A DNA stretch of 64,000 bases from Rhyzopertha dominica. Its lineage: Eukaryota; Arthropoda; Insecta; Coleoptera; Bostrichidae. The DNA is taken from the NCBI GenBank assembly GCA_025024175.1, contig QCXZ01000137.1, positions 67,146,680 to 67,210,679 on the forward strand, given 5' to 3'. Shown here in pieces: positions 23,601 to 53,961 of this stretch; position 1 is the first letter of the stretch; the number at the start of each line of letters is the position of its first letter. The notes beneath the pieces were generated by a model. It did no database searches. It was not told the DNA's origin and worked only from the letters and a program-made list of their open reading frames with translations. The position numbers and the translations under genes were made by a program.

Positions 23601-25915
23601 TCATCGAAAGTCTTGCCCTGTGCGATGGCTTTTCCTTGGCTCACATACTCCAAAGATTTTCCTTGGCTGACATATTCAAGTGTCTTGCCCTGGAAGATTT
23701 CTTTAGCTTGGGATACTTCATCGAAAGTCTTGCCCTGTGCGATGGCTTTTCCTTGGCTCACATACTCCAAAGACTTTCCTTGGCTGACATATTCAAGTGT
23801 CTTGCCCTGGAAGATTTCTTTAGCTTGGGATACTTCATCGAAAGTCTTGCCCTGTGCGATGGCTTTTCCTTGGCTCACATATTCCAAAGACTTTCCTTGG
23901 CTGACATATTCAAGTGTCTTGCCCTGGAAGATTTCTTTAGCTTGGGATACTTCATCGAAAGTCTTGCCCTGTGCGATGGCTTTTCCTTGGCTCACATACT
24001 CCAAAGACTTTCCTTGGCTGACATATTCAAGTGTCTTGCCCTGGAAGATTTCTTTAGCTTGGGATACGTCATCGAAAGTCTTGCCCTGTGCGATGGCTTT
24101 TCCTTGGCTCACATACGCCAAAGACTTTCCTTGGCTGACATATTCAAGTGTCTTGCCCTGGAAGATTTCTTTAGCTTGGGATACTTCATCGAAAGTCTTG
24201 CCCTGTGCGATGGCTTTTCCTTGGCTCACATACTCCAAAGATTTTCCTTGGCTGACATATTCAAGTGTCTTGCCCTGGAAGATTTCTTTAGCTTGGGATA
24301 CTTCATCGAAAGTCTTGCCCTGTGCGATGGCTTTTCCTTGGCTCACATACTCCAAAGACTTTCCTTGGCTGACATATTCAAGTGTCTTGCCCTGGAAGAT
24401 TTCTTTAGCTTGCGATACGTCATCGAAAGTCTTGCCCTGTGCGATGGCTTTTCCTTGGCTCACATACTCCAAAGACTTTCCTTGGCTGACATATTCAAGT
24501 GTCTTGCCCTGGAAGATTTCTTTAGCTTGGGATACGTCATCGAAAGTCTTGCCCTGTGCGATGGCTTTTCCTTGGCTCACATACTCCAAAGACTTTCCTT
24601 GGCTGACATATTCAAGTGTCTTGCCCTGGAAGATTTCTTTAGCTTGGGATACGTCATCGAAAGTCTTGCCCTGTGCGATGGCTTTTCCTTGGCTCGCATA
24701 CTCCAAAGACTTTCCTTGGCTGACATATTCAAGTGTCTTGCCCTGGAAGATTTCTTTAGCTTGGGATACTTCATCGAAAGTCTTGCCCTGTGCGATGGCT
24801 TTTCCTTGGCTCACATACTCCAAAGACTTTCCTTGGCTGACATATTCAAGTGTCTTGCCCTGGAAGATTTCTTTAGCTTGGGATACTTCATCGAAAGTCT
24901 TGCCCTGTGCGATGGCTTTTCCTTGGCTCACATACTCCAAAGACTTTCCTTGGCTGACATATTCAAGTGTCTTGCCCTGGAAGATTTCTTTAGCTTGGGA
25001 TACTTCATCGAAAGTCTTGCCCTGTGCGATGGCTTTTCCTTGGCTCACATACTCCAAAGACTTTCCTTGGCTGACATATTCAAGTGTCTTGCCCTGGAAG
25101 ATTTCTTTAGCTTGGGATACTTCATCGAAAGTCTTGCCCTGTGCGATGGCTTTTCCTTGGCTCACATACTCCAAAGACTTTCCTTGGCTGACATATTCAA
25201 GTGTCTTGCCCTGGAAGATTTCTTTAGCTTGGGATACTTCATCGAAAGTCTTGCCCTGTGCGATGGCTTTTCCTTGGCTCACATACTCCAAAGACTTTCC
25301 TTGGTTGACATATTCAAGCGTCTTGCCCTGGAAGATTTCTTTAGCTTGGGATATTTCATCGAAAGTCTTGCCCTGTGCGATGGCTTTTCCTTGGTTCATG
25401 TACTCCATAGATTTTCCTTGGTTAACATAATCAATAGTCTTGCCTTGGCTGAATTCCTTAGCTTGTGACACATAGTTTTGAGCAATATTCTTTCCTTGGT
25501 TAATTTCGACGTCTCTGATTGTTGGCTTTACTGATGGTTCAAGACCCATAATTGGTGTTGTATAGTTGATAGTATTTTCCAGCTCCTCGTCAGATAATTC
25601 TAGCATATCTGCATCTTCCTGTAATATAAAAACGATGGTTGAACTTATGGCGCAAAGGTACAGAATCACCGTTTCAATATCAGTTGTGGTATGTTTATGT
25701 ATTTTACCGAAAATTTTTAAAGCATATTTGCTTTATTTCACTTTGCCGTTTGGGAATTTCATTCCAAAACCGACAATTGATGTGGAATTATACAAATTAC
25801 TTACAATGTAAACAAGAGCAGATGGATTCTTCTCACTCAAGCACATCAGAGGTGCGGTGTAAGCAAATAAATCATCCATTTCCTTCTTGGAGAATGCCAA
25901 GAAGTCTGGGCCTTC
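20627..25915 (-). CDS. QGK-repeat protein: two duplicated N-terminal modules plus 38 x 39-residue repeats
   Basis: Two clear exons: 25915-25805 (111 bp, 37 codons, acceptor TTTCAG, donor GTAAGT) and 25618-20627 (1663 codons plus stop), both phase 0. The first exon and the start of the second encode related modules sharing E-x2-D-x-L-x2-S-x2-E-x6-YT-x-P-x-M. Then come 38 in-frame copies of a 39-residue unit made of sub-repeats of 9, 9, 6, 9 and 6 residues, each opening QGK (once QAK), e.g. QGKTLEYVS. The unit is rich in Gln, Lys and Glu with near-zero net charge. The ~120-residue C terminus is unique and ends with a hydrophobic stretch (MFLAMMLFKFCMPFV). No signal peptide was found in these exons; the true first exon is unresolved (candidate at 32682). 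I do not recognise the family. A structural, adhesive or cross-linked extracellular role is speculation. Confidence 0.85.
20930..25450. repeat. 117-bp coding minisatellite, about 38 copies, with 1053-bp higher-order repeat
   Basis: The same base in the AAAGTCTT block recurs from 21033 to 25362, a distance of 4329 = 37 x 117, so no unit has gained or lost a base. Rare variants recur at exactly 1053 bp (9 units). For example, CACATATTCC lies at 21770, 22823 and 23876, and the Asn variant (TTCATTGAAAG) appears in the first two blocks. This shows recent block duplication. Synonymous sites are nearly as uniform as the rest. Confidence 0.95.
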
Positions 25916-32796: not shown

Positions 32797-32989
32797 CTTC
32801 TATCCCCCCAGTCTCCTACTTCTATTGGTCAAGCAACAAGATTATCTATGAGTTCCTCTTTGTGATTGGCCGTTAAATATAATGTAAGAAATCGGGTGAC
32901 GTTTTTGAGATGCCATAGGGTTATAATTTTGTATGTATTCCGCATTTGTTTAGTGGGCTGCAGTAGGGGAAAAGCGCCGTTCTGAGCCC

Positions 32990-34640
32990 TAATTTGCATA
33001 TTTGCATATTAATTAGGGTAATTAAAACAATGGGTAATTAATTAATTAAGACAATGGGTAATTAATTAAAACAATGGGTAATTAATTAAGACAATGGGTA
33101 ATTAGCGATTTTGATGAACTAATTAGGGTAATTAGCAGTTTGATAAGGGTAATTAGCAGTTTGATTGGGGTAATTAACAGTTTGATTAGGGTAATTAACG
33201 GTTTGATTAGGGTAATTAATAGTTTGATTAGGGTGATTAGCATTTTGATTGGAGTAATTAGTGATTCTGATTAATTAATTAGGGTAATTAATAGTTTGAT
33301 TAGGGTAATTAGTGATTATGATTAATTAATTAGGTTAATCAATAGTTTGATTAGATGAATTATCAGCTTAATTTGGGTCGTTCTGAGCCCTAATTTGCAT
33401 ATTTGCATATTAATTAGGGGTAATTAGCGTTTAATTAAGTTAATTAGGGTAATTAGCGATTTTGATGGGCTAATTAGGGTAATTAGCGGCTTGATTGGGG
33501 TAATTAGCAGTTTGATAAGGGTAATTAGTAGTTTGATTAGGATAATTAACAGTTTGATTCGGGTAATTAGCGGCTTGATTGGGGTGATTAGTAGTTTGAT
33601 TGGGGTGATTAGTAGTTTGATTGGAGTAATTAGCAGTTTGATTGGGGTTATTAGCATATTAATTAGGGGTAATTAGCGGTTAATTCGGTTAATTAGCTGT
33701 TTAATTAGGGTAATTAGCGATTTTGATGGGCTAATTAGGGTAATTAGCGGCTTGATTGGGGTAATTAGCAGTTTGATAAGGGTAATTAGTAGTTTGATTA
33801 GGATAATTAACAGTTTGATTCGGGTAATTAGCGGCTTGATTGGGGTGATTAGTAGTTTGATTGGGGTGATTAGTAGTTTGATTGGAGTAATTAGCAGTTT
33901 GATTGGGGTTATTAGCATATTAATTAGGGGTAATTAGCGGTTAATTCGGTTAATTAGCTGTTTAATTAGGGTAATTAGCGATTTTGATGGGCTAATTAGG
34001 GTAATTAGCGGCTTGATTGGGGTAATTAGCAGTTTGATAAGGGTAATTAGTAGTTTGATTAGGATAATTAACAGTTTGATTCGGGTAATTAGCGGCTTGA
34101 TTGGGGTAATAAGTAGTTTGATTGGAGTAATTAGCAGTTTAATTGGGGTAATTAGCATATTAATTAGGGGTAATTAGCGGTTAATTCTGTTAATTAGCTG
34201 TTTAATTAGGGTAATTAGCGGTTTAATTAGGGTTATTCGCGGATTAATTGATTGATTAGGATAATTAGACGTTGTAATTAGGGCAATTGGAGTTTTGATT
34301 AAAGTAATTGGCTGTTTGATTAGGGTAATTAGAGTTTTGATTAGAGTAATTGGCTGTATGATTAGGGTAATTGACGGTTTTTTAATTGATTGATTAGGTT
34401 CTAATAAGCGTAATTCGCGATTTTGATTGATTGATTAGAGTGATTCGCGGTTTAATTGATTGATTAGGACAATTAGCAGTTTACTGAGGGTAATAAAAGG
34501 TTTAATTACGGTACTTAGCTTATAGCGGTTATAATTGATTAATAACGATAATTAAGGTTTTAATTCGCGGTTTTGATTAATTTATGATTAATGATATGGA
34601 GGTAATTAGCGATTTAATTATAATTAGCGATGTGTACTTA
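32990..34640. repeat. TAATTAG minisatellite with 261-bp higher-order unit (left arm)
   Basis: Degenerate units of about 18-24 bp of the form GTTTGATTAGGGTAATTAGC are repeated dozens of times. A larger unit of exactly 261 bp repeats about three times (33491, 33752 and 34013 carry the same sequence). The array is mirrored at 51230-52640 and continues more loosely at 34990-35400. It is dense in TAATTA cores. Confidence 0.95.
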
Positions 34641-34739
34641 CACATTTCTTACTATAGCCGTACAACATCAATTCATATATGCCAAGCTTCGAGGCTGGTT
34701 TGTATATATAACATCGGACAACCCCACCCCATCGACAAA

Positions 34740-37700
34740 ACCCATAATTTATAGGTATAAATCACCTGTCAAGGAAAGGTAAGGTCCTTTGTTCCCTAAT
34801 GCACCCTCATTAAATCACCTTTTGTTGTCTAATTTATGGGAGACCCGTTGTAACAAAAGAACATCTGCTCCTTTGTGAGTGTACCTACGTTAAATCGCCT
34901 GTCAAGGAAAGATAAGATCCTTTGTTTCCTAATGCATGGCAGACCACCCACATTAAATCTCCCGCAACTAAAGACCACCTGCCCCTTTGTTCTCTAATTT
35001 TAATTAGCAGTTTGATTAGGGTAATTAGGGATTTGATTATGGTAATTAGCTGTTTGATTAGAGTTTGATTATGGTTATTCGCGGTTTAGATTAGGGTAAT
35101 TAGCGGCTTGATTAGCAGTTTGATAAGGTTAATTAACAGTTTAATTTATTAATTATGATAATTATCGGATTAAATTATCATGATTTGCTGTTTTAATTAG
35201 GGCGATTCTCGGTTTTAATTGATTGATTAGGGTGATCAGCGGTTTTAATTAGTGTGATTGATCAGCATAATTAGCGGTTTTAATCGATTGATTATGATAA
35301 TTAGGGTGATCCGCGGTTTAATTAGCGTGATTCGTGGTTTTGATAAGGATGATTCGCGGTTTTAATTAGGGTAATAATAGTTAATAGCGATTTTGATTAA
35401 TTAATAGGGTAATTATGGAGCCCCCAGTTCAACAAAGGACAGACCACCCAATGACAGCCTGCAACAAAATAAGACCCCCCATCGAGCACCCTCGCTTGCA
35501 ACAAAAGAACATCTGCCTCTTTTAGATAGACCCCCCATTGAGAATCCGCGTTAAATTGCCTGCAACAAAAGAACATCTGCCCTCGACCTTACATTGAGAA
35601 CCCGCGTTAAATTGGTTGTAACAAAAGAACATATGTGAGACCGACGTTAAATCACCAAGTCCATCATACATCAAATACACAAGCGCAGCACCAACGAACA
35701 GAAGAACACCAAACTCCGAATCTGGTTTAAATAATCTTAAGCAAACCCCTACACGTGCAAAGTATTTTTCTACCTGCCCGCAACCCAACGTCAAAACATC
35801 TGTCACGGTTCTACCTGTCTTCAAGAAAATACAAGATCTGCCTCCTTGCTCCCTAAAGCATAACAGACCACCCGCAGCAACCCTTTTGAACCCTAACTTG
35901 AGGGAGACACCCATTATACTGTTCGTGCGCTATATAGTTCCTATTTTCACTTGGGAGTGATGTAATATCTTGTGCTATAGTTTTTATTTATATAAGCTGT
36001 CCCATTTCTGCTATACCGCATGCAACTACTTTATTTTAAATAAAAAACTATCTATTATCGCATTTTGTTAAGATATTGATCAAATTAGCACACTAGTTAA
36101 AATTTTACATAATGAGAATTCTTATTATTATAGCCTTATATCACAAGCTCTCATTTTATTTGATATGGGGAGGAAAAATTTCGTATTTTACTAAGTAGGT
36201 ACTAGCCCGATCTGAAAAGTTGCAAAATGGAAAAATTTATTCTTGAAGAAAGAGAAATTACATACCCTTATTGCTTTCTTGAACAAAGGAGTCTATCATA
36301 CACAACCGCACAGTTCAAATCCAACGGGAGAATGCCAAGATTCGAATGAATCTGGTTTAAATAACCTCTATTTTACAGCCTGCATTCGTAAAAATCACAA
36401 GTGTCTGAATTCCATCTGCTTCTTTATGGGAGACCATCCGTAGAGAACCCTCGTCAAATCACCTGTCAAGTTACTTACCCTCCCCCCCCCCCCCCCTCAC
36501 ACCCTAATCGGCAACCTTTGTTAGATCATGTGTCTAGATTCTACCTGAAACCAAGAAAAGATATATGTCCTTTTTTATGAGCACGAGCACCCTCTTTAAA
36601 TCGCATCTCACATTTCTACATACCTGCAACAATAGATAACATCTGTCCTTTTATGGGAGACCTCCCATAGAATACACAAGTTCTTGTTCTGAATGCTTAC
36701 AACAAAAGATAACATTTATGAGAGACCTCCACATTAAATAAGCCATGATCAATGTTTTTAACCAGCAAAAAGATGCTAAGTCATGGGAGACCGGCTATAA
36801 ATCAACTTTTATCTTTACCAGACACTCTGATGGATTTTGCACTATTCCCTAGTGTTCTATCACGGTCATCAAAGACAGAAGTGCAATTCTCAGAACCTTT
36901 TCTGTGAGCATATTATCCATTCAGTAAAAACATAACCTCATCACACAATAGATAACATATACCTATAGAGAACCCTCGTAATGCTAACAAAATCATATCA
37001 TCTACCCTCCATTAAACCATCCAACATGTTATTCTTCTACCTGTTTTACAATTTTACATGCTTCCATCTTTGAGACGCCAAAGTTATATCGACCGTGAAC
37101 AATATTCCTAACCAACGGAAATATGACATATACTTTTAAGTTATGAGAGACCGCCTGCTATTCGATAACCTTAGCAAAGTTATTCTTCTACCTGATTGCA
37201 ATAAAATATGTATCACTCACCTACCATACGTTATTGTTCTATAGTCTCTGTTTTTTCCCTATTCAACAGTTTTTTTTAAATTATATATCGTCATATTATC
37301 TTACAATAAAAAGATGGAATACCACACATCGAGCATTGATTCGCATTTTTTTTTAACTCCTCAACACCCCAAATCGTAAAAATTATAAGTCTTTTGAGCT
37401 CCGGATGTGGTATATGCTATCGGATAGAAGAATCCATATTATACTTCTCGATTAAATGTTTAATAACGCCAATATCCTCAGCGGAATGCTGTGATGAACT
37501 CTTGCGATGACAAGGTCACCTTCTTGTATCTTTAAACACCCGAACTCGTAATAATTATAAGCTATTTTGAACTCTACATAATATGATATCGATTATTCGA
37601 TATTCTGTACCAACGGCTTCAAACACAAACATAACTCTTATGTGATCCATATATGGGAGACAGTCCACTATTCAGCATAAGATGGCTGACCCCGACTATT
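34740..37700. repeat. Degenerate subterminal repeat module (left arm)
   Basis: The recurring block is roughly: a CAACAAAAGAACATCTGCC box, CTTT, ATGGGAGACC, a few bases, AACCC, CGTTAAATC, ACCTG. Examples start near 34851, 34963, 35499, 35563, 35621, 36628 and 36712. Spacing varies (60-120 bp). The mirrored set lies at 43440-45850 and 48670-51110. The function is unknown; repeated subterminal blocks are often transposase binding sites. Confidence 0.75.
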
Positions 37701-39855
37701 TAAAGAAAAAACTCATTAATGAGGTTCTTCAAATACTTCAGTTTTATTTTCTTACTATTGGTTAAATTGTCGTGATTTCACGCCTATAGTATTTAAAAAT
37801 TCGATACAACGCTTTAAGGTAAACTGTTTTTCAAGTATTTAAGTACATTTGCCTATCGAACATTCTGTCTAATAAAAGCCAAGAATATCACATATTTGCA
37901 ATCACTTAATGATTTCAGAATTTCAGATTGGGAATTAACTCAATTTTTCATTATTGTACTTTACGTATTGGTAGATAAGGTATAATTGCACATGCATATA
38001 AAGAACTTTATACCAACATTCGAGTATTACACACATTGATTTACATAAGCTTCACATATGCTCCTTAAGCTTTCAAATAATACCCACAATTCTTAGAAAA
38101 AACGATATTATTAAATTAATCTAGCATGGGTGGACTCGGAAATCTGTGTTCGAAGATGTATTCCAAACCCGCCTTAGCGATAAGTTTAACATAAAACATC
38201 TCCAATTAGCAATGCTATACTTAAATGTGACAAATTGCATGTATAAAACATCATACTAACACAATCGCGTATACCTGAATCAGAGCAATACGACAGAGCG
38301 GATGACTTCCTACCTGCCTTCGATTTTATATTAGACTCAATTTTCATTGTTAAACTTTACATACTGGTAGTTAAGTTATACTTGCTTATTCAGAATTGAT
38401 AACTTCTAAATACACATGTACATAAGTATTATACATTGATTTCCACCACGACATCTAATAATATCCGCACAATTCTTAGAAAAACAAAAACAACTTAGTT
38501 TTTTACGAATTATTAATTAATTTTAGTATGAATTGGCTCAGAAATTTGTGTTCGAAGACGTATTCCAAACCCATCTTAACGATAAGTTTAGCACAAAACG
38601 TATCCAAATAGCAATGCTCTAGTTAAATGTAACAAATTATATGTATAAAAACAGCGTGCTAATGCAATTGTGTGCACCTAAATCTGAGCGATATGACAGG
38701 GCGGGCGACCCTAAGACGTGACTTTCTACCTGCCTCCGAATTTAAAAGCGTCTACCTGCGTAACCGACCGACCGACCGCATTATGTAGTTACCGACACTC
38801 AAAATGCACTAGCCGTCAAATACTCGCTTTAATTCACTTGCAAGAATAACATTTTCCGCAAACATGCTCATCGAACTATTTCAACAAAAAACGGGTCGTC
38901 AATTAAACTTATATCGTCTCAGATCAGGTTTTTATACTTAAATACATTGTATCAAAATTATATCTATAAAAAAGCACCATTCAAATACGTATACCTGAGT
39001 GATGGACCGATCGGCTGGGTTATGCAGTCCCTGTACACGCATCATACAAAGACCGAACGATCCAAAAATGCCTTCAACAATTATCAATTCGTAATGCATT
39101 TAATGTTAAAAAAAGGCAAATCACAATATTTCAGGGCAGTCTGTTTGAATATGAACACCATGCTTTATATTACAAGTACTATAAGCTTACAGAAAAATGA
39201 ATATATGTCAAAAAAAGGCGAAACACTAAACATATTTTAAGGAGGTCTGTTTGAATATGAGCTTACAGAAAAATGAATATTTCAGGGTGGTCTGTTTGAA
39301 TATACGTCATGCAAGTACTTTAGGTGTATAGTCAATACATTTTGAATGAAAGGAAGCGAGACTGTCCTTTGAAAGTTAGGATGGTCTAGTCGACTCTATA
39401 GAAAAATCTCAGTTAGTATTGTAAATGGATGGTCAATGCGCTTTTGAATACAAAGGAAAAACGAGACCACCCTTTGAAAGTCAGGTCGACTTCATGCATT
39501 TTTGAATAAAACGAAATAGCTTGTGGGCGGTCTGTTTGAATGCCGAACACTGTACTTCATAGACATATTTTAAATGTATAGCCTATGCGTTTTTTTTTTA
39601 ATAAAGGGAAACGAGACTGTCCATTTCAAAGGTTTTGGATGTAATATATCACTAACAATGCATCCCTAGATGGCTTTGGGTTCCTAGCTTTCTAAAAAAC
39701 CCTTTACAAGAATCTAATGTGGAAGGGTTTGTCTGAAGTTATTTAAGTCAGACTGAATCCATAGCTTAGCATTATTCTGTTTTTGTTGCTCAGTCGAGAT
39801 AAACAGTGTTATTCTGCGTGTGTGTGCCTACATCTGTTCTTTCTTTTATAATAAA

Positions 39856-41113
39856 ATGGAAAATTTCGGCGATAGTGTTGTGGAGTATGTGCTCAGGGCA
39901 TATGATATGTAAGTATACATAAGCTAGAACGGCATAGTTGATTATATAACTTTTTAATTCATAGATTTATGACATTCCTGGCGGTGCTCACTAGGATAGG
40001 AGACCTGTTAAAATGTCCTGTATGTCTGCAGCATTTCAAACCGCCAGTAAGAATCGTCAGTTGTCAATTAGGACATAATGTATGCTTAACATGCGTCCAA
40101 TATTTAAACGATCTTGAGCAGTCAGGGGATGGAGGGATTAAATGCCCTGTATGCAGGGATGCTAGGGTAAAAGTTGATAATTTTAATTGGTTCGCTGAAA
40201 ACATATGCGATGTGCTTTTCACGGCCGGGGTATTCGGAAATCCCGCTATGCATCTGGAACACCCAATAACTTTAGTTGATGACATTAGGGGACGCTCAAC
40301 GCCAGGTAATACTCAACTTACATTTTTTCCTTATTTTCTATTGTTTTATTTTTTTAGATCAACTTCTCGAAAATCCCGGCAGTCCTATTGCTGGCCCATC
40401 AGAGCTATCATTGGCTTTAAGAATGAGTATGTAATTTGCATTAGTTGCATCTAAAATTAATTTTATGTGTTATAGACGATTTTGAAAATGCCGAGGCCGA
40501 CAATAATGAAAATATGGACGTAAACCATAGACCACAGCAGCCATCAGTTATCAGTAAGTCATACAGTCTGTATTATTTTTCATGAGAAACTTAATTTTCT
40601 TTTCTTTTTCCATTAGCCATAGAAGATTCTTCCGATGAAGATGAGCCATCACATCAGTTGCATCCTGGTGAGACAATCAATCATTTTGTTTAAATTTTTA
40701 ATCAGCCTTTTTTTTCTAATTATCTTCAGAAAATCCTTATGCACCTGTAACCCATATTGAGCAGCATGTTTATGGCAATGAACATTATGCATGGGGTATG
40801 TTACAATTGGTTTTTTTTTCCTCCAATTTCTTAGGAATGATTTTATTTTCCAGTTCCAACTCCTGAAACTTATACTTCAAGAATTGGACCCATGAGATTG
40901 TCAAATATTTATATGCAACACCCGGCTGAGCCATATTATAGAGGTAATAAGTTTTTTTTTCTTCTTATATATATATTACTAATACAATTTTTTCTTTTTA
41001 TTTCAGATCCAATCAATCACGTCCAGCATCCAGGAATCCCTCACTACATGCAGCATCAATCGTCAACAAGTGTTGTTCAGAATATTACTTATTACCTACC
41101 CCCGCCGTTTTAA
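39856..41113 (+). CDS. RING-finger protein (SIAH-like RING), sole gene of the giant element
   Basis: Eight exons: 39856-39908, 39965-40305, 40358-40426, 40476-40553, 40617-40667, 40730-40795, 40854-40943 and 41007-41113 (TAA). They total 855 coding bases and 284 residues. The first intron is phase 2 and the other six are phase 1; all are about 50-60 bp with GT/AG. Residues 35-81 form a complete C3HC4 RING: C35, C38, C51, H55, C58, C61, C78, C81. The layout CPVC..PP...CQ-GH-VC..C resembles SIAH-type E3 ubiquitin ligases. The rest (113-284) is low-complexity: an acidic patch (EDSSDEDEP) and a His/Tyr/Gln/Pro-rich tail. A TCAGT initiator-like site is at 39791 and AATAAA at about 41145. RING proteins usually pass ubiquitin to bound targets; the substrate here is unknown. 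The intact frame over eight exons argues for selection. Confidence 0.88.
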
Positions 41114-44100
41114 AAGAAATTAAGTTGCAATGTAAACATAACTTGAATAAACCGAGAAAAAACATATACACTTGTATTTTTTTAAGTGTAATTTCTTATT
41201 TTTCAGCTTGAAAAAAAAGTGTGTGGTGTTTAATATTGACAACAGTAAGTATAACTTGAAAAATACGTGCTTGTAATATGCTATCCTAACTTTCAAAGGA
41301 CAGTCTCGCTTCCTTTCATTCAAAATGTATTGACTATACACCTAAAGTACTTGCATGACGTATATTCAAACAGACCTCCTTAAAATATGTTTAGTGTTTC
41401 GCCTTTTTTTGACATATATTCATTTTTCTGTAAGCTTATAGTACTTGTAATATAAAGCATGGTGTTCATATTCAAACAGACTGCCCTGAAATATTGTGAT
41501 TTGCCTTTTTTTAACATTAAATGCATTACGAATTGATAATTGTTGAAGGCATTTTTGGATCGTTCGGTCTTTGTATGATGCGTGTACAGGGACTGCATAA
41601 CCCAGCCGATCGGTCCATCACTCAGGTATACGTATTTGAATGGTGCTTTTTTATAGATATAATTTTGATACAATGTATTTAAGTATAAAAACCTGATCTG
41701 AGACGATATAAGTTTAATTGACGACCCGTTTTTTGTTGAAATAGTTCGATGAGCATGTTTGCGGAAAATGTTATTCTTGCAAGTGAATTAAAGCGAGTAT
41801 TTGACGGCTAGTGCATTTTGAGTGTCGGTAACTACATAATGCGGTCGGTCGGTCGGTTACGCAGGTAGACGCTTTTAAATTCGGAGGCAGGTAGAAAGTC
41901 ACGTCTTAGGGTCGCCCGCCCTGTCATATCGCTCAGATTTAGGTGCACACAATTGCATTAGCACGCTGTTTTTATACATATAATTTGTTACATTTAACTA
42001 GAGCATTGCTATTTGGATACGTTTTGTGCTAAACTTATCGTTAAGATGGGTTTGGAATACGTCTTCGAACACAAATTTCTGAGCCAATTCATACTAAAAT
42101 TAATTAATAATTCGTAAAAAACTAAGTTGTTTTTGTTTTTCTAAGAATTGTGCGGATATTATTAGATGTCGTGGTGGAAATCAATGTATAATACTTATGT
42201 ACATGTGTATTTAGAAGTTATCAATTCTGAATAAGCAAGTATAACTTAACTACCAGTATGTAAAGTTTAACAATGAAAATTGAGTCTAATATAAAATCGA
42301 AGGCAGGTAGGAAGTCATCCGCTCTGTCGTATTGCTCTGATTCAGGTATACGCGATTGTGTTAGTATGATGTTTTATACATGCAATTTGTCACATTTAAG
42401 TATAGCATTGCTAATTGGAGATGTTTTATGTTAAACTTATCGCTAAGGCGGGTTTGGAATACATCTTCGAACACAGATTTCCGAGTCCACCCATGCTAGA
42501 TTAATTTAATAATATCGTTTTTTCTAAGAATTGTGGGTATTATTTGAAAGCTTAAGGAGCATATGTGAAGCTTATGTAAATCAATGTGTGTAATACTCGA
42601 ATGTTGGTATAAAGTTCTTTATATGCATGTGCAATTATACCTTATCTACCAATACGTAAAGTACAATAATGAAAAATTGAGTTAATTCCCAATCTGAAAT
42701 TCTGAAATCATTAAGTGATTGCAAATATGTGATATTCTTGGCTTTTATTAGACAGAATGTTCGATAGGCAAATGTACTTAAATACTTGAAAAACAGTTTA
42801 CCTTAAAGCGTTGTATCGAATTTTTAAATACTATAGGCGTGAAATCACGACAATTTAACCAATAGTAAGAAAATAAAACTGAAGTATTTGAAGAACCTCA
42901 TTAATGAGTTTTTTCTTTAAATAGTCGGGGTCAGCCATCTTATGCTGAATAGTGGACTGTCTCCCATATATGGATCACATAAGAGTTATGTTTGTGTTTG
43001 AAGCCGTTGGTACAGAATATCGAATAATCGATATCATATTATGTAGAGTTCAAAATAGCTTATAATTATTACGAGTTCGGGTGTTTAAAGATACAAGAAG
43101 GTGACCTTGTCATCGCAAGAGTTCATCACAGCATTCCGCTGAGGATATTGGCGTTATTAAACATTTAATCGAGAAGTATAATATGGATTCTTCTATCCGA
43201 TAGCATATACCACATCCGGAGCTCAAAAGACTTATAATTTTTACGATTTGGGGTGTTGAGGAGTTAAAAAAAAATGCGAATCAATGCTCGATGTGTGGTA
43301 TTCCATCTTTTTATTGTAAGATAATATGACGATATATAATTTAAAAAAAAACTGTTGAATAGGGAAAAAACAGAGACTATAGAACAATAACGTATGGTAG
43401 GTGAGTGATACATATTTTATTGCAATCAGGTAGAAGAATAACTTTGCTAAGGTTATCGAATAGCAGGCGGTCTCTCATAACTTAAAAGTATATGTCATAT
43501 TTCCGTTGGTTAGGAATATTGTTCACGGTCGATATAACTTTGGCGTCTCAAAGATGGAAGCATGTAAAATTGTAAAACAGGTAGAAGAATAACATGTTGG
43601 ATGGTTTAATGGAGGGTAGATGATATGATTTTGTTAGCATTACGAGGGTTCTCTATAGGTATATGTTATCTATTGTGTGATGAGGTTATGTTTTTACTGA
43701 ATGGATAATATGCTCACAGAAAAGGTTCTGAGAATTGCACTTCTGTCTTTGATGACCATGATAGAACACTAGGGAATAGTGCAAAATCCATCAGAGTGTC
43801 TGGTAAAGATAAAAGTTGATTTATAGCCGGTCTCCCATGACTTAGCATCTTTTTGCTGGTTAAAAACATTGATCATGGCTTATTTAATGTGGAGGTCTCT
43901 CATAAATGTTATCTTTTGTTGTAAGCATTCAGAACAAGAACTTGTGTATTCTATGGGAGGTCTCCCATAAAAGGACAGATGTTATCTATTGTTGCAGGTA
44001 TGTAGAAATGTGAGATGCGATTTAAAGAGGGTGCTCGTGCTCATAAAAAAAGGACATATATCTTTTCTTGGTTTCAGGTAGAATCTAGACACATGATCTA

Positions 44101-45853
44101 ACAAAGGTTGCCGATTAGGGTGTGAGGGGGGGGGGGGAGGGTAAGTAACTTGACAGGTGATTTGACGAGGGTTCTCTACGGATGGTCTCCCATAAAGAAG
44201 CAGATGGAATTCAGACACTTGTGATTTTTACGAATGCAGGCTGTAAAATAGAGGTTATTTAAACCAGATTCATTCGAATCTTGGCATTCTCCCGTTGGAT
44301 TTGAACTGTGCGGTTGTGTATGATAGACTCCTTTGTTCAAGAAAGCAATAAGGGTATGTAATTTCTCTTTCTTCAAGAATAAATTTTTCCATTTTGCAAC
44401 TTTTCAGATCGGGCTAGTACCTACTTAGTAAAATACGAAATTTTTCCTCCCCATATCAAATAAAATGAGAGCTTGTGATATAAGGCTATAATAATAAGAA
44501 TTCTCATTATGTAAAATTTTAACTAGTGTGCTAATTTGATCAATATCTTAACAAAATGCGGTAATAGATAGTTTTTTATTTAAAATAAAGTAGTTGCATG
44601 CGGTATAGCAGAAATGGGACAGCTTATATAAATAAAAACTATAGCACAAGATATTACATCACTCCCAAGTGAAAATAGGAACTATATAGCGCACGAACAG
44701 TATAATGGGTGTCTCCCTCAAGTTAGGGTTCAAAAGGGTTGCTGCGGGTGGTCTGTTATGCTTTAGGGAGCAAGGAGGCAGATCTTGTATTTTCTTGAAG
44801 ACAGGTAGAACCGTGACAGATGTTTTGACGTTGGGTTGCGGGCAGGTAGAAAAATACTTTGCACGTGTAGGGGTTTGCTTAAGATTATTTAAACCAGATT
44901 CGGAGTTTGGTGTTCTTCTGTTCGTTGGTGCTGCGCTTGTGTATTTGATGTATGATGGACTTGGTGATTTAACGTCGGTCTTCACATATGTTCTTTTGTT
45001 ACAACCAATTTAACGCGGGTTCTCAATGTAAGGTCGAGGGCAGATGTTCTTTTGTTGCAGGCAAATTTAACGCGGATTCTCAATGGGGGGTCTATCTAAA
45101 AGAGGGCAGATGTTCTTTTGTTGCAAGCGAGGGTGCCTCGATGGGGGGTCTTTATTTTGTTGCAGGCTGTCATTGGGTGGTCTGTCCTTTGTTGAACTGG
45201 GGGCTCCATAATTACCTATTAATTAATCAAAATCCTATTAACTAATTATTACCCTTCTAATTAAAACCGCGAATCATCCTTATCAAAACCACGAATCACG
45301 CTAATTAAACCGCGGATCACCCTAATTATCATAATCAATCGATTAAAACCGCTAATTATGCTGATCAATCACACTAATTAAAACCGCTGATCACCTTAAT
45401 CAATCAATTAAAACCGAGAATCGCCCTAATTAAAACAGCAAATCATGATAATTTAATCCGATAATTATCATAATTAATAAATTAAACTGTTAATTACCTT
45501 ATCAAACTGCTAATCAAGCCGCTAATTACCCTAATCTAAACCGCGAATAACCATAATCAAACTCTAATCAAACAGCTAATTACCATAATCAAATCCCTAA
45601 TTACCCTAATCAAACTGCTAATTAAAATTAGAGAACAAAGGGGCAGGTGGTCTTTAGTTGCGGGAGATTTAATGTGGGTGGTCTGCCATGCATTAGGAAA
45701 CAAAGGATCTTATCTTTCCTTGACAGGCGATTTAACGTAGGTACACTCACAAAGGAGCAGATGTTCTTTTGTTACAACGGGTCTCCCATAATTAGACAAC
45801 AAAAGGTGATTTAATGAGGGTGCATTAGGGAACACAAGGACCTTACCTTTCCT
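40718..45853. repeat. First copy of a 5.1-kb direct duplication (spacer end plus right arm)
   Basis: The 5136 bases match 45954-51092 (5139 bases) almost perfectly, broken only by single-base indels. The right inverted-repeat arm begins at 41283 within this copy and is cut off by the N gap. Near the gap this copy has extra bases (e.g. GTCTTCACATATG at about 44978 against GTCTCACATATG in both other copies), which suggests contig-end errors. Confidence 0.9.
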
Positions 45854-45953
45854 NNNNNNNNNNNNNNNNNNNNNNNNNNNNNNNNNNNNNNNNNNNNNNN
45901 NNNNNNNNNNNNNNNNNNNNNNNNNNNNNNNNNNNNNNNNNNNNNNNNNNNNN
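45854..45953. other. Assembly gap of exactly 100 N
   Basis: A run of 100 N, a conventional scaffold-gap length. The sequence before it ends CTTACCTTTCCT, and the sequence after it restarts 5.1 kb back within the RING gene. Confidence 0.98.
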
Positions 45954-46347
45954 AATTATCTTCAGAAAATCCTTATGCACCTGTAACCCATATTGAGCAG
46001 CATGTTTATGGCAATGAACATTATGCATGGGTATGTTACAATTGGTTTTTTTTCCTCCAATTTCTTAGGAATGATTTTATTTTCCAGTTCCAACTCCTGA
46101 AACTTATACTTCAAGAATTGGACCCATGAGATTGTCAAATATTTATATGCAACACCCGGCTGAGCCATATTATAGAGTAATAAGTTTTTTTTTTCTTTAT
46201 ATATATATATTACTAATACAATTTTTTCTTTTTATTTCAGATCCAATCATCACGTCCAGCATCCAGGAATCCCTCACTACATGCAGCATCAATCGTCAAC
46301 AAGTGTTGTTCAGAATATTACTTATTACCTACCCCCGCCGTTTTAAA
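45954..46347 (+). pseudogene. Duplicate of RING-gene exons 6-8 with single-base indels
   Basis: It repeats 40718-41113. Compared with the intact copy it lacks one G at the exon 6 donor (ATGGGTATG for ATGGGGTATG), one G at the exon 7 donor (AGAGTAATA for AGAGGTAATA), and one base in exon 8 (CAATCATCAC for CAATCAATCAC). Each loss breaks a splice site or frame. Because they cluster at a contig start, they are more likely sequencing errors than real decay. Confidence 0.7.
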
Positions 46348-49300
46348 AGAAATTAAGTTGCAATGTAAACATAACTTGAATAAACCGAGAAAAAACATAT
46401 ACACTTGTATTTTTTTAAGTGTAATTTCTTATTTTCAGCTTGAAAAAAAAGTGTGTGGTGTTTAATATTGACAACAGTAAGTATAACTTGAAAAATACGT
46501 GCTTGTAATATGCTATCCTAACTTTCAAAGACAGTCTCGCTTCCTTTCATTCAAAATGTATTGACTATACACCTAAAGTACTTGCATGACGTATATTCAA
46601 ACAGACCTCCTTAAAATATGTTTAGTGTTTCGCCTTTTTTTGACATATATTCATTTTTCTGTAAGCTTATAGTACTTGTAATATAAAGCATGGTGTTCAT
46701 ATTCAAACAGACTGCCCTGAAATATTGTGATTTGCCTTTTTTTAACATTAAATGCATTACGAATTGATAATTGTTGAAGGCATTTTTGGATCGTTCGGTC
46801 TTTGTATGATGCGTGTACAGGGACTGCATAACCCAGCCGATCGGTCCATCACTCAGGTATACGTATTTGAATGGTGCTTTTTTATAGATATAATTTTGAT
46901 ACAATGTATTTAAGTATAAAAACCTGATCTGAGACGATATAAGTTTAATTGACGACCCGTTTTTTGTTGAAATAGTTCGATGAGCATGTTTGCGGAAAAT
47001 GTTATTCTTGCAAGTGAATTAAAGCGAGTATTTGACGGCTAGTGCATTTTGAGTGTCGGTAACTACATAATGCGGTCGGTCGGTCGGTTACGCAGGTAGA
47101 CGCTTTTAAATTCGGAGGCAGGTAGAAAGTCACGTCTTAGGGTCGCCCGCCCTGTCATATCGCTCAGATTTAGGTGCACACAATTGCATTAGCACGCTGT
47201 TTTTATACATATAATTTGTTACATTTAACTAGAGCATTGCTATTTGGATACGTTTTGTGCTAAACTTATCGTTAAGATGGGTTTGGAATACGTCTTCGAA
47301 CACAAATTTCTGAGCCAATTCATACTAAAATTAATTAATAATTCGTAAAAAACTAAGTTGTTTTTGTTTTTCTAAGAATTGTGCGGATATTATTAGATGT
47401 CGTGGTGGAAATCAATGTATAATACTTATGTACATGTGTATTTAGAAGTTATCAATTCTGAATAAGCAAGTATAACTTAACTACCAGTATGTAAAGTTTA
47501 AACAATGAAAATTGAGTCTAATATAAAATCGAAGGCAGGTAGGAAGTCATCCGCTCTGTCGTATTGCTCTGATTCAGGTATACGCGATTGTGTTAGTATG
47601 ATGTTTTATACATGCAATTTGTCACATTTAAGTATAGCATTGCTAATTGGAGATGTTTTATGTTAAACTTATCGCTAAGGCGGGTTTGGAATACATCTTC
47701 GAACACAGATTTCCGAGTCCACCCATGCTAGATTAAATTTAATAATATCGTTTTTTCTAAGAATTGTGGGTATTATTTGAAAGCTTAAGGAGCATATGTG
47801 AAGCTTATGTAAATCAATGTGTGTAATACTCGAATGTTGGTATAAAGTTCTTTATATGCATGTGCAATTATGACCTTATCTACCAATACGTAAAGTACAA
47901 TAAATGAAAAATTGAGTTTAATTCCCAATCTGAAATTCTGAAATCATTAAGTGATTGCAAATATGTGATATTCTTGGCTTTTATTAGACAGAATGTTCGA
48001 ATAGGCAAATGTACTTAAATACTTGAAAAACAGTTTACCTTAAAGCGTTGTATCGAATTTTTAAATACTATAGGCGTGAAATCACGACAATTTAACCAAT
48101 AGTAAGAAAATAAAACTGAAGTATTTGAAGAACCTCATTAATGAGTTTTTTCTTTAAATAGTCGGGGTCAGCCATCTTATGCTGAATAGTGGACTGTCTC
48201 CCATATATGGATCACATAAGAGTTATGTTTGTGTTTGAAGCCGTTGGTACAGAATATCGAATAATCGATATCATATTATGTAGAGTTCAAAATAGCTTAT
48301 AATTATTACGAGTTCGGGTGTTTAAAGATACAAGAAGGTGACCTTGTCATCGCAAGAGTTCATCACAGCATTCCGCTGAGGATATTGGCGTTATTAAACA
48401 TTTAATCGAGAAGTATAATATGGATTCTTCTATCCGATAGCATATACCACATCCGGAGCTCAAAAGACTTATAATTTTTACGATTTGGGTGTTGAGGAGT
48501 TAAAAAAAAAATGCGAATCAATGCTCGATGTGTGGTATTCCATCTTTTTATTGTAAGATAATATGACGATATATAATTTAAAAAAAAACTGTTGAATAGG
48601 GAAAAAACAGAGACTATAGAACAATAACGTATGGTAGGTGAGTGATACATATTTTATTGCAATCAGGTAGAAGAATAACTTTGCTAAGGTTATCGAATAG
48701 CAGGCGGTCTCTCATAACTTAAAAGTATATGTCATATTTCCGTTGGTTAGGAATATTGTTCACGGTCGATATAACTTTGGCGTCTCAAAGATGGAAGCAT
48801 GTAAAATTGTAAAACAGGTAGAAGAATAACATGTTGGATGGTTTAATGGAGGGGTAGATGATATGATTTTGTTAGCATTACGAGGGTTCTCTATAGGTAT
48901 ATGTTATCTATTGTGTGATGAGGTTATGTTTTTACTGAATGGATAATATGCTCACAGAAAAGGTTCTGAGAATTGCACTTCTGTCTTTGATGACCATGAT
49001 AGAACACTAGGGAATAGTGCAAAATCCATCAGAGTGTCTGGTAAAGATAAAAGTTGATTTATAGCCGGTCTCCCATGACTTAGCATCTTTTTGCTGGTTA
49101 AAAAACATTGATCATGGCTTATTTAATGTGGAGGTCTCTCATAAATGTTATCTTTTGTTGTAAGCATTCAGAACAAGAACTTGTGTATTCTATGGGAGGT
49201 CTCCCATAAAAGGACAGATGTTATCTATTGTTGCAGGTATGTAGAAATGTGAGATGCGATTTAAAGAGGGTGCTCGTGCTCATAAAAAAAGGACATATAT

Positions 49301-51092
49301 CTTTTCTTGGTTTCAGGTAGAATCTAGACACATGATCTAACAAAGGTTGCCGATTAGGGTGTGAGGGGGGGGGGGGCGGGGGAGGGTAAGTAACTTGACA
49401 GGTGATTTGACGAGGGTTCTCTACGGATGGTCTCCCATAAAGAAGCAGATGGAATTCAGACACTTGTGATTTTTACGAATGCAGGCTGTAAAATAGAGGT
49501 TATTTAAACCAGATTCATTCGAATCTTGGCATTCTCCCGTTGGATTTGAACTGTGCGGTTGTGTATGATAGACTCCTTTGTTCAAGAAAGCAATAAGGGT
49601 ATGTAATTTCTCTTTCTTCAAGAATAAATTTTTCCATTTTGCAACTTTTCAGATCGGGCTAGTACCTACTTAGTAAAATACGAAATTTTTCCTCCCCATA
49701 TCAAATAAAATGAGAGCTTGTGATATAAGGCTACAATAATAAGAATTCTCATTATGTAAAATTTTAACTAGTGTGCTAATTTGATCAATATCTTAACAAA
49801 ATGCGGTAATAGATAGTTTTTTATTTAAAATAAAGTAGTTGCATGCGGTATAGCAGAAATGGGACAGCTTATATAAATAAAAACTATAGCACAAGATATT
49901 ACATCACTCCCAAGTGAAAATAGGAACTATATAGCGCACGAACAGTATAATGGGTGTCTCCCTCAAGTTAGGGTTCAAAAGGGTTGCTGCGGGTGGTCTG
50001 TTATGCTTTAGGGAGCAAGGAGGCAGATCTTGTATTTTCTTGAAGACAGGTAGAACCGTGACAGATGTTTTGACGTTGGGTTGCGGGCAGGTAGAAAATA
50101 CTTTGCACGTGTAGGGGTTTGCTTAAGATTATTTAAACCAGATTCGGAGTTTGGTGTTCTTCTGTTCGTTGGTGCTGCGCTTGTGTATTTGATGTATGAT
50201 GGACTTGGTGATTTAACGTCGGTCTCACATATGTTCTTTTGTTACAACCAATTTAACGCGGGTTCTCAATGTAAGGTCGAGGGCAGATGTTCTTTTGTTG
50301 CAGGCAATTTAACGCGGATTCTCAATGGGGGGTCTATCTAAAAGAGGCAGATGTTCTTTTGTTGCAAGCGAGGGTGCTCGATGGGGGGTCTTATTTTGTT
50401 GCAGGCTGTCATTGGGTGGTCTGTCCTTTGTTGAACTGGGGGCTCCATAATTACCCTATTAATTAATCAAAATCGCTATTAACTATTATTACCCTAATTA
50501 AAACCGCGAATCATCCTTATCAAAACCACGAATCACGCTAATTAAACCGCGGATCACCCTAATTATCATAATCAATCGATTAAAACCGCTAATTATGCTG
50601 ATCAATCACACTAATTAAAACCGCTGATCACTTTAATCAATCAATTAAAACCGAGAATCGCCCTAATTAAAACAGCAAATCATGATAATTTAATCCGATA
50701 ATTATCATAATTAATAAATTAAACTGTTAATTAACCTTATCAAAACTGCTAATCAAGCCGCTAATTACCCTAATCTAAACCGCGAATAACCATAATCAAA
50801 CTCTAATCAAACAGCTAATTACCATAATCAAATCCCTAATTACCCTAATCAAACTGCTAATTAAAATTAGAGAACAAAGGGGCAGGTGGTCTTTAGTTGC
50901 GGGAGATTTAATGTGGGTGGTCTGCCATGCATTAGGAAACAAAGGATCTTATCTTTCCTTGACAGGCGATTTAACGTAGGTACACTCACAAAGGAGCAGA
51001 TGTTCTTTTGTTACAACGGGTCTCCCATAAATTAGACAACAAAAGGTGATTTAATGAGGGTGCATTAGGGAACAAAGGACCTTACCTTTCCT
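45954..51092. repeat. Second copy of the 5.1-kb direct duplication
   Basis: Same orientation and content as 40718-45853. Away from its first few hundred bases it agrees with the left arm better than the first copy does, so it is probably the more accurate version of the right arm. Confidence 0.9.
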
Positions 51093-52666
51093 TGACAGGT
51101 GATTTATACCTATAAATTATGGGTTTTGTCGATGGGGTGGGGTTGTCCGATGTTATATATACAAACCAGCCTCGAAGCTTGGCATATATGAATTGATGTT
51201 GTACGGCTATAGTAAGAAATGTGTAAGTACACATCGCTAATTATAATTAAATCGCTAATTACCTCCATATCATTAATCATAAATTAATCAAAACCGCGAA
51301 TTAAAACCTTAATTATCGTTATTAATCAATTATAACCGCCTATAAGCTAAGTACCGTAATTAAACCTTTTATTACCCTCATTTAAACTGCTAATTGTCCT
51401 AATCAATCAATTAAACCGCGAATCACACTAATCAATCAATCAAAATCGCGAATTACGCTTATTAGAACCTAATCAATCAATTAAAAAACCGTCAATTACC
51501 CTAATCATACAGCCAATTACTCTAATCAAAACTCTAATTACCCTAATCAAACAGCCAATTACTTTAATCAAAACTCCAATTGCCCTAATTACAACGTCTA
51601 ATTATCCTAATCAATCAATTAATCCGCGAATTACCCTAATTAAACCGCTAATTACCCTAATTAAACAGCTAATTAACAGAATTAACCGCTAATTACCCCT
51701 AATTAATATGCTAATTACCCCAATTAAACTGCTAATTACTCCAATCAAACTACTTATTACCCCAATCAAGCCGCTAATTACCCGAATCAAACTGTTAATT
51801 ATCCTAATCAAACTGTTAATTATCCTAATCAAACTACTAATTACCCTTATCAAACTGCTAATTACCCCAATCAAGCCGCTAATTACCCTAATTAGCCCAT
51901 CAAAATCGCTAATTACCCTAATTAAACAGCTAATTAACCGAATTAACCGCTAATTACCCCTAATTAATATGCTAATAACCCCAATCAAACTGCTAATTAC
52001 TCCAATCAAACTACTAATCACCCCAATCAAACTACTAATCACCCCAATCAAGCCGCTAATTACCCGAATCAAACTGTTAATTATCCTAATCAAACTACTA
52101 ATTACCCTTATCAAACTGCTAATTACCCCAATCAAGCCGCTAATTACCCTAATTAGCCCATCAAAATCGCTAATTACCCTAATTAACTTAATTAAACGCT
52201 AATTACCCCTAATTAATATGCAAATATGCAAATTAGGGCTCAGAACGACCCCAAATTAAGCTGATAATTCATCTAATCAAACTATTAATTAACCTAATTA
52301 ATTAATCATAATCACTAATTACCCTAATCAAACTATTAATTACCCTAATTAATTAATCAGAATCACTAATTACTCCAATCAAAATGCTAATCACCCTAAT
52401 CAAACTATTAATTACCCTAATCAAACCGTTAATTACCCTAATCAAACTGTTAATTACCCCAATCAAACTGCTAATTACCCTTATCAAACTGCTAATTAGC
52501 CTAATTAGCTCATCAAAATCGCTAATTACCCATTGTCTTAATTAATTACCCATTGTTTTAATTAATTACCCATTGTCTTAATTAATTAATTACCCATTGT
52601 TTTAATTACCCTAATTAATATGCAAATATGCAAATTAGGGCTCAGAACGGCGCTTTTCCCCTACTG
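46515..52666 (-). repeat. Right terminal inverted repeat of the giant element (complete copy)
   Basis: From ATCCTAACTTTC at 46515 to the CTACTG end at 52666 (6152 bp), it is the reverse complement of the left arm. The TAATTAG minisatellite is at 51230-52640, with one fewer 261-bp unit than the left arm. The near identity of the arms implies recent insertion or ongoing gene conversion. Confidence 0.85.
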
Positions 52667-52670
52667 GCTG

Positions 52671-53961
52671 CTATATAATATACATAATCTTGGACTGGTT
52701 CCACTACATAAATTACTAAAAATCAAGAGGTTTTTTCCATAATTAATTATTTGCCGTCATAAGGTTAGTAGCAAATAAGAGTTGGTGATTACTTATGACT
52801 TACATTTAAAAAATAAATTAACTGGCGCTACTAATGTTTTTGTAACACAGGTTTTATTAATTGACATATTTTTCATGAAGGAGATACCAACGATGTTTAG
52901 TTGGAAAAAAATTTATATCAAGCTAAATACAGCGAAATTTTAACATTCGTCAAAAATGAGAATCTCACGAGAACGAAAATTGATGATACTGAAAATTAAA
53001 GAACATACTTGATTCGGACATATTGCCTAGCACCATTTGGACTCCAAATAAATTTTTAGGCGAACTTTTGTTTTCTTAGTAGTAAATTTCTTCAAGCGAC
53101 TTGTAACGAATAAAGTTTTGAAATGATTTTTGGTGATCTCATTTAGGGCTATTATCTACATTCATTTTGACTTTTTGAGTGCTTTGTTACGTCGATTCAT
53201 TAATTTATTACAAATACTGAGTAATTACCTACATGGGCTCTTTCTTTAACTTTTTTACGTCCGGGGAACAATGGATCACAATAGCTCGGGGTTGCTATTG
53301 CTACCCGGTCGCACTTGCATTTTCTAGTCATAAATCAGTTTTTATTTTCAAATACTGAAGCACATAAATAAAAGTACGTATAAAGATTTGAAATAAAAAT
53401 ACCTTTGTTTTAAAATATTTTTTTTAAAATCAGATGTTAAATACTTTTTGTTACCGTCCATACGGTAGGTTATAATATGATGTTCAGACCCGCTGCGCAT
53501 GTTTGTGTTTATAAATTAGCTTTGAAATAATTTTGACATTCTGTTAATAAATTTGTCATTACACTTTTCTAATTAAAAGTTACTTGTTCTTCAAATATCG
53601 GGGAATGTGTCTGCAGCCCTGATANTTACAATAGAGCGTCACAGGATCACAACCTCAGTGCTTTATTGTCNCTACTGGTCCTTCGAGAAGTTGAATATTT
53701 CTCCTGCAATACACCGTGTGGTGGAAGAATCTAATACTGTCTATCGACGAAGATCTGTCTGCCATACTTTTAAAATGTATTTATATACTAATTAAAATTT
53801 AGGTTTTTTTTTCAAATAAATACCTACTTATATTTCCAACCGAAATAGAGAATTTTGACTTTAGTTGTATATCTTGCCAACAATGTGGGGTGAGATAGAC
53901 GACGATTAGTCGCCAATAAAATGCAAATTAAGGATTCATCGGTTTTTCTTCGTCTTCAAAA
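52671..53961. other. Flank of the giant element, no gene seen
   Basis: AT-rich sequence with a few N bases. No reading frame, repeat or RNA gene could be supported. Confidence 0.4.

Follow-up and report, generated by a model that had tools for sequence, protein, structure and literature searches.

Vertebrate Mavericks, as described in PMC8097293, have AG- and AGT-type ends and 6-bp target duplications and carry accessory genes that flank the core modules; in intact elements the repeats measure 46-1,447 bp and no introns were seen in the genes. The Drosophila Foldback and Galileo elements have inverted arms of great length that are repetitive inside, the long and internally repetitive repeats of Galileo resembling Foldback (PMC3573991). 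According to PMC4411706, a RING finger in transposable elements was known as of 2015 in Chapaev only; a giant planarian Gypsy-like element has a RING zinc-finger motif, AIR1 (PMC6431247), and baculoviruses, poxviruses and some Megavirales carry a RING ligase as an accessory gene (PMC4981718).

The element described here lies in a 64,000-bp stretch of contig QCXZ01000137.1 of the beetle Rhyzopertha dominica, which was analysed over its full length and is called the window below. It consists of two long inverted arms around a spacer with one RING gene, is a member of a dispersed mobile family with shared ends, and is very probably a non-autonomous, snapback-like derivative of a Maverick/Polinton that was moved in trans and carries the spliced RING gene as an accessory gene. 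The placement with the Mavericks/Polintons was made because of the ends, the 6-bp target duplications and the relatives, whereas the original prediction, made from the letters of the window, had seen an unclassified foldback element. AG...CT ends, 6-bp target duplications and, in three same-end pairs, a double-jelly-roll capsid gene are shared with the Mavericks; the window copy differs from them in having no core gene, arms of 6.2-6.4 kb and a gene with seven introns. New here is a palindromic family of Maverick derivatives that departs from intact vertebrate Mavericks in arm length and introns. Like Chapaev (and RAG1), it combines a RING finger with a eukaryotic DNA transposon, but the RING of Chapaev is part of the transposase and that of the planarian element part of a polyprotein, whereas the window RING is encoded by a separate spliced gene. 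The viral RING ligases are likewise accessory genes of double-stranded DNA viruses; the difference is that the gene here has eight exons and is associated with integrated Mavericks. The literature searched, PMC5803895, PMC4981718 and PMC8715426 included, yielded no description of a Maverick with a RING gene, and the main texts of PMC8097293, PMC4028283 and PMC3671162 had no word beginning with "ring" or "ubiquitin"; a prior description may exist.

Shared ends, target duplications and layout of the element

A search of the genome (479 Mb in 138 contigs) with the 99-bp end of the element gave at least 46 scored matches, a lower bound because 40 of the 62 candidates were scored. The matches were paired by the analyst into 14 inverted pairs; identity was 96-100% in 12 of these and 82-92% in the remaining two, M and N. 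The expected recurrence of the same ends at other loci was borne out; partial ends were found besides at C136 (copy O) and C44. The ends were AGTAGGGG on the left and CCCCTACT on the right in the window copy and in the 13 other pairs. The leading C that had been predicted as part of the end belonged instead to the target duplication GGCTGC. Exact 6-bp duplications flanked all 12 of the fully read pairs, the window copy (W) included, and all 12 sequences differed: W, GGCTGC; A, AGTTTC; D, GCTCTC; B, GGTATT; E, ATTTTG; F, CGTATT; G, AATGAT; H, TTCACA; N, ACCAAT; I, AACATG; K, TAAAAT; and L, GGTAAG. Three copies stood outside this count, namely J (five of five known bases agreed, with one N), M (right flank not fetched) and O (no right end). 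A 4-bp duplication, GCTG, was replaced by the 6-bp one after the other copies were compared. Viral contigs contained no exact copy of either the 33-mer or the 20-mer taken from the end, and 49 stretches matching the terminal 16-mer in prokaryote genome contigs were taken as chance matches.

Self-comparison of the window revealed the two inverted arms of more than 6 kb and the 1.9-kb spacer that had been predicted (Table 1). The alignment of the left arm (6.4 kb) with the complete right arm (6.15 kb) contained 11 substitutions in 6,439 columns in addition to a 240-bp and a 45-bp indel, and the homology ended at the shared terminal bases, beyond which the flanks were unrelated. With up to three mismatches allowed, the terminal 16-mer had two matches in the window, both exact, while 100 shuffles gave a mean of 0.20 and none with two. 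The palindrome is genuine but was partly drawn twice: positions 45954-51092 repeated 40718-45853 at 99.2%, together with the 3' portion of the RING gene, and the contigs across the 100-N gap share an overlap of about 5.1 kb. Three substitutions and the 45-bp deletion set the right arm, as first drawn, apart from the left arm; all of them recurred in the second drawing, so that the two are a single right arm in two unmerged contigs. Counted once, the element was 14,465 bp long, 87% of it arm, so that of the predicted extent 32961..52666 the palindrome stood and the size did not. The two drawings of the right arm differed by four substitutions and 32 gap events over 5,157 columns; the latter call for caution with single-base indels of the assembly. 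Eight other copies were fetched, in pieces, and seven of them contained runs of 100 N like the window copy, copy N being without any; elements of the family appear difficult to assemble. The gaps and the unmerged overlap within the palindrome could suggest an assembly or library artefact in which fold-back reads gave a false palindrome, yet the common stop of both arms at the same base, the unrelated flanks with their 6-bp duplication, the recurrent arm-to-arm differences and the inverted arms of copies at other places make this highly improbable.

Table 1. Positions in the window of the parts of the palindromic element and of its RING gene
Feature	Position	Strand	Basis or remark
Left 6-bp target site duplication, GGCTGC	32956..32961	.	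same 6 bp again at 52666-52671
Left arm (terminal inverted repeat), 6,420 bp, begins AGTAGGGGAAAAGCG	32962..39381	+	self-comparison, arm alignment, end pairs
Outer arm part, mostly degenerate 21/42/261-bp tandem repeats (ATTAGGGTAATTAGCAGTTTG)	33019..34483	+	tandem-repeat search
Unique spacer, 1,901 bp	39382..41282	+	self-comparison; other fetched copies have similar spacers
RING gene, 8 exons, 284 aa	39856..41113	+	exons 39856-39908, 39965-40305, 40358-40426, 40476-40553, 40617-40667, 40730-40795, 40854-40943, 41007-41113
Right arm, first drawing, ends at scaffold gap	41283..45853	-	self-comparison, arm alignment
Scaffold gap of 100 N	45854..45953	.	N run
3' part of spacer drawn a second time (RING exons 6-8), unmerged contig overlap	45954..46514	+	self-comparison, alignment
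Right arm, complete drawing, 6,151 bp, ends CGCTTTTCCCCTACT	46515..52665	-	self-comparison, arm alignment, end pairs
Right 6-bp target site duplication, GGCTGC	52666..52671	.	copy of 32956..32961

No capsid or packaging ATPase frame was found in the window element, and the longest open frame of the non-repetitive arm had 135 aa, against a 95% value of 131 and a maximum of 180 in shuffled sequence. Rfam searches at gathering cut-offs and tRNA searches of the window gave no matches. The predicted lack of a transposase applied to the window copy; elsewhere in the genome, copies with the same ends contained a capsid gene. Copy A (31.6 kb) encoded a double-jelly-roll capsid protein (PF21738, E=5.6e-83), a PLA2-like protein (PF08398, 2e-11), a Pox_A32-type ATPase (PF04665, 6.3e-8) and, some 1.25 kb in from its left end, a divergent RING with 44-47% identity. 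Pairs I and L each enclosed a capsid match and a RING, the latter as far from the left end as in copy A. Copy D contained Gypsy-like frames with reverse transcriptase, RNase H and integrase (L063:2-4323 and L064:710-2837), one of which was followed on L063 by a baculovirus-F-like envelope frame, and copy N contained two RING matches of another lineage. RING matches and element ends had almost identical spacing on the two contig stretches C44:608508-620387 and C45:5280870-5288515, and this likeness suggests a haplotig or segmental duplication of the N copy.

The degenerate tandem repeats near the ends of the long arms recall Galileo and Foldback, and a Foldback/Galileo-type element, related to P or MULE elements and moved by a cut-and-paste transposase, would have long and internally repetitive arms of this kind. 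Against such an element speak the AG...CT ends, the 6-bp duplications of every fully read pair, and the capsid genes that three pairs with these ends enclose, one of them along with a packaging-type ATPase. In addition, among 20 scanned frames (156-692 aa) from A, D and N there was no P- or MULE-type transposase, and integrase domains appeared only in the Gypsy-like frames of D. There is very little chance that the family is of this type.

All 49 matches of a 1.7-kb piece from the arm interior were located in W, B, D, E, F, G, H, J, K or O, and copy A matched the arm at length in the outer part of the arm only; a model of hairpin-RNA silencing of Mavericks was dropped on account of this restriction. 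Arms were compared over a 1.8-kb segment, with matches under 1,100 bp dropped. The two arms of F differed at none of 1,801 sites, while F differed from the other elements at 14-26. When the two arms of W were compared, the first drawing of the right arm gave one difference in 1,798 sites and the second drawing 12, which exceeds the four substitutions of the direct comparison of the drawings and points to partial misalignment in these counts. The arms of F have been homogenised, as by end-to-end replication or gene conversion; the other elements were too alike to judge.

The RING gene and its relatives near capsid genes

The spacer contained one intact RING gene as predicted, with an open frame once the eight exons were joined, and introns of 49-63 bp, the first in phase 2 and the remaining six in phase 1. 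The RING domain occupied residues 35-82, and in Pfam the 284-aa protein scored above the cut-offs of zf-RING_UBOX and zf-C3HC4. The best Pfam match was Sina_RING (E=2.1e-6), yet it was under its cut-off (28.2 of 29.3 bits), and a Pfam scan of the protein at E 0.1 found no C-terminal Sina TRAF-like domain. In the sequence search of solved structures, TRIM RINGs ranked top (a TRIM21 chain, E=4.7e-6) and SIAH1 was weaker (E=0.0062), so that the predicted SIAH likeness was reduced to a leaning. The C-x3-H spacing of the protein fits that of SIAH. All eight zinc ligands of the C3HC4 RING were invariant in seven sequences from five lineages (grouped by eye), and exon 1 and the first intron were at the same position in 9 of 9 RING loci examined, in five lineages. 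From these ligands and the RING ligases of large DNA viruses, we infer that the protein is a putative ubiquitin-ligase-like factor. A secreted RING effector as in phylloxera was dropped as a candidate, the protein having no obvious signal peptide by eye and the gene lying within a Maverick family.

A set of 5.8 billion proteins contained one cluster matching the RING protein, at 100% over the aligned exon-2 part and from three contigs. The closest database protein, P0001, was identical over the exon-2 part and differed at two residues where it was read through intron 2 (window 40306-40357); it seems to be the same coding sequence from another individual or copy. A profile of seven RINGs gave four matches in the same set, of which P0001 was the RING gene itself, P0002 was a clear relative and two were marginal. 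Against viral contigs, the RING part gave five pattern matches, none of them confirmed.

In the genome, the RING protein had 123 exon matches. The 62 exon-2-type matches that were typed, a few overlapping ones at the same loci being omitted, formed 53 clusters, 40 of them outside the 14 paired elements. A capsid match was present within 25 kb of 14 of these 40 clusters, whereas random placement gave a mean of 0.46 (maximum 4), or 0.75 (maximum 5) within contigs, in 2,000 trials each. The Maverick load was large: PF21738 (capsid) gave 129 matches and PF03175 (polymerase) 64. Long open frames contained many of them, and some loci were matched twice. The best 79 of the 129 capsid matches were compared by score class with pooled RING-type matches within 30 kb. 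In the class of 268-286 bits (mostly proteins of 421 and 425 aa), 19 of 24 capsid loci had such a match, as compared with 1/31, 1/17 and 0/7 in the other classes (2/55 together; Fisher p 8.6e-12, a descriptive value since the classes were drawn after the pattern was seen). RING, polymerase and capsid occurred within 15 kb at two loci (C136:38131808-38145846 and C64:43057595-43072428). Three RING matches with one internal stop each were exactly 5,512 bp apart (G000:C136:20302083, 20307595 and 20313107), perhaps as a tandem array of a RING-containing unit.

A Sina_RING search of the genome gave 77 matches, including a 152-aa type near further capsids; some resembled host SIAH relatives, and Sina TRAF loci were few. 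These other Sina-type genes, together with the Sina_RING match of the protein, would be expected if a host RING gene had been captured and copied by a palindrome (Pack-type capture), as the original prediction had offered, and an ancient host origin of the gene is plausible. Such a capture is nevertheless quite unlikely, for the divergent homologues share the position of exon 1 and the first intron and stand near Maverick capsid genes far more often than random placement gives. The association of the RING gene with Mavericks predates the window palindrome.

The selection on the gene was examined with 11 of 27 RING domains extracted without stops. Ten pairs with dS under 1 gave dN/dS values of 0.04, 0.07, 0.08, 0.14, 0.17, 0.24, 0.28, 0.41, 0.45 and 1.47, seven of them under 0.3; the pairs share sequences, and the deeper ones are saturated or nearly so. 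The near-identical window-type copies had five synonymous and 16 non-synonymous changes (10 copies, second partial copies in D and F left out), with N66K in four. Nine of the ten had coding indels, some of them possibly assembly errors, and four of these copies (J and O) had one deletion in common. The gene looks conserved over the long term and unconstrained in the palindromic copies, with assembly error allowed for. Of the original prediction of a non-autonomous element that keeps a RING gene for its own spread, the first half stood, and the changes in the window-type copies lend the second no support.

Elsewhere in the window, a 1,701-aa open frame at 20627-25732 (-) consisted largely of near-identical 39-aa units, encoded by a 117-bp tandem array of 38.7 copies at 98% matches, with the motif QGKAI[AT]QGKTF 38 times. 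Positions 2780-3830 (-) were taken by eye to be cyclooxygenase-like and 11142-16910 (+) to be methionine aminopeptidase 1-like, the Pfam scan of one frame of each giving nothing. If the latter reading is right, its exons are spread over kilobases, as compared with the RING gene introns of 49-63 bp.

Origin and movement of the palindromic copies

Snapback defective-interfering genomes have one terminal segment at both ends, inverted, around a short loop. The window element has the same arrangement and differs in being one of a set of integrated, dispersed copies, for which a snapback origin is proposed. On the Maverick/Polinton reading, the core genes of a Maverick would have been lost and a terminal segment from one side would have come to lie, inverted, at the other side as well. 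The arms may have grown when a linear molecule, during replication, had one of its ends duplicated in a snapback-like manner, which fits a unique loop between two identical ends. The derivative would retain both replication and integration ends, with the RING gene in the loop. The shared ends and duplications suggest that it would then be replicated and integrated in trans by the protein-primed polymerase B and integrase of a Maverick, the presumed donor of the enzymes. In fuller Mavericks, the RING protein would be an accessory factor under selection, probably as a ubiquitin ligase whose target is a protein of host defence or of the cell cycle, and in the palindromic copies the gene would be carried along.

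Several results weigh against this reading. No polymerase (PF03175) match was located inside A, I or L, so that the relatives predicted to combine core genes with the same ends were found as regards the capsid and not as regards the polymerase. Six frames of A (of at least 11 with 120 aa or more) were scanned and had no polymerase or integrase domain, integrase not having been searched genome-wide. Past its first 476 bp, inside the tandem-repeat part, the arm had no long match in A, which means that the exact parent is missing. Of the 40 RING clusters outside the paired elements, 26 had no capsid match within 25 kb, at variance also with the predicted confinement of RING homologues to such palindromes. 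In the capsid comparison, the classes were made by score and not by tree, and were set after the coincidences had been noticed; five of the 24 loci of the RING-bearing class had no RING match within 30 kb, and the distances between RING and capsid reached 26.6 kb, which does not by itself prove one shared element. The dN/dS ratios, which the original prediction had proposed to test across RING copies, were mostly low, but three of the ten were 0.41, 0.45 and 1.47, the last from six differences.

A bolder version, which we regard as possible but rather doubtful, is that the palindromic copies are endogenised snapback (defective-interfering) Maverick genomes, that is, satellites that would replicate from duplicated terminal origins and be packaged and integrated by a helper Maverick, and that retain a spliced RING ubiquitin-ligase gene, in use as a counter-defence module in one Maverick group.

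The young family of palindromic derivatives, whose arms exceed the lengths given for vertebrate Mavericks severalfold, shares a genome with its relatives and offers a natural case for studies of trans-mobilisation and arm homogenisation. Mavericks are seen as integrated viruses, and their accessory genes are poorly understood. A spliced RING-ligase-like gene that stands near 19 of the 24 capsid loci of one Maverick group, and that appears conserved across diverged lineages, makes the hypothesis of a counter-defence function testable.

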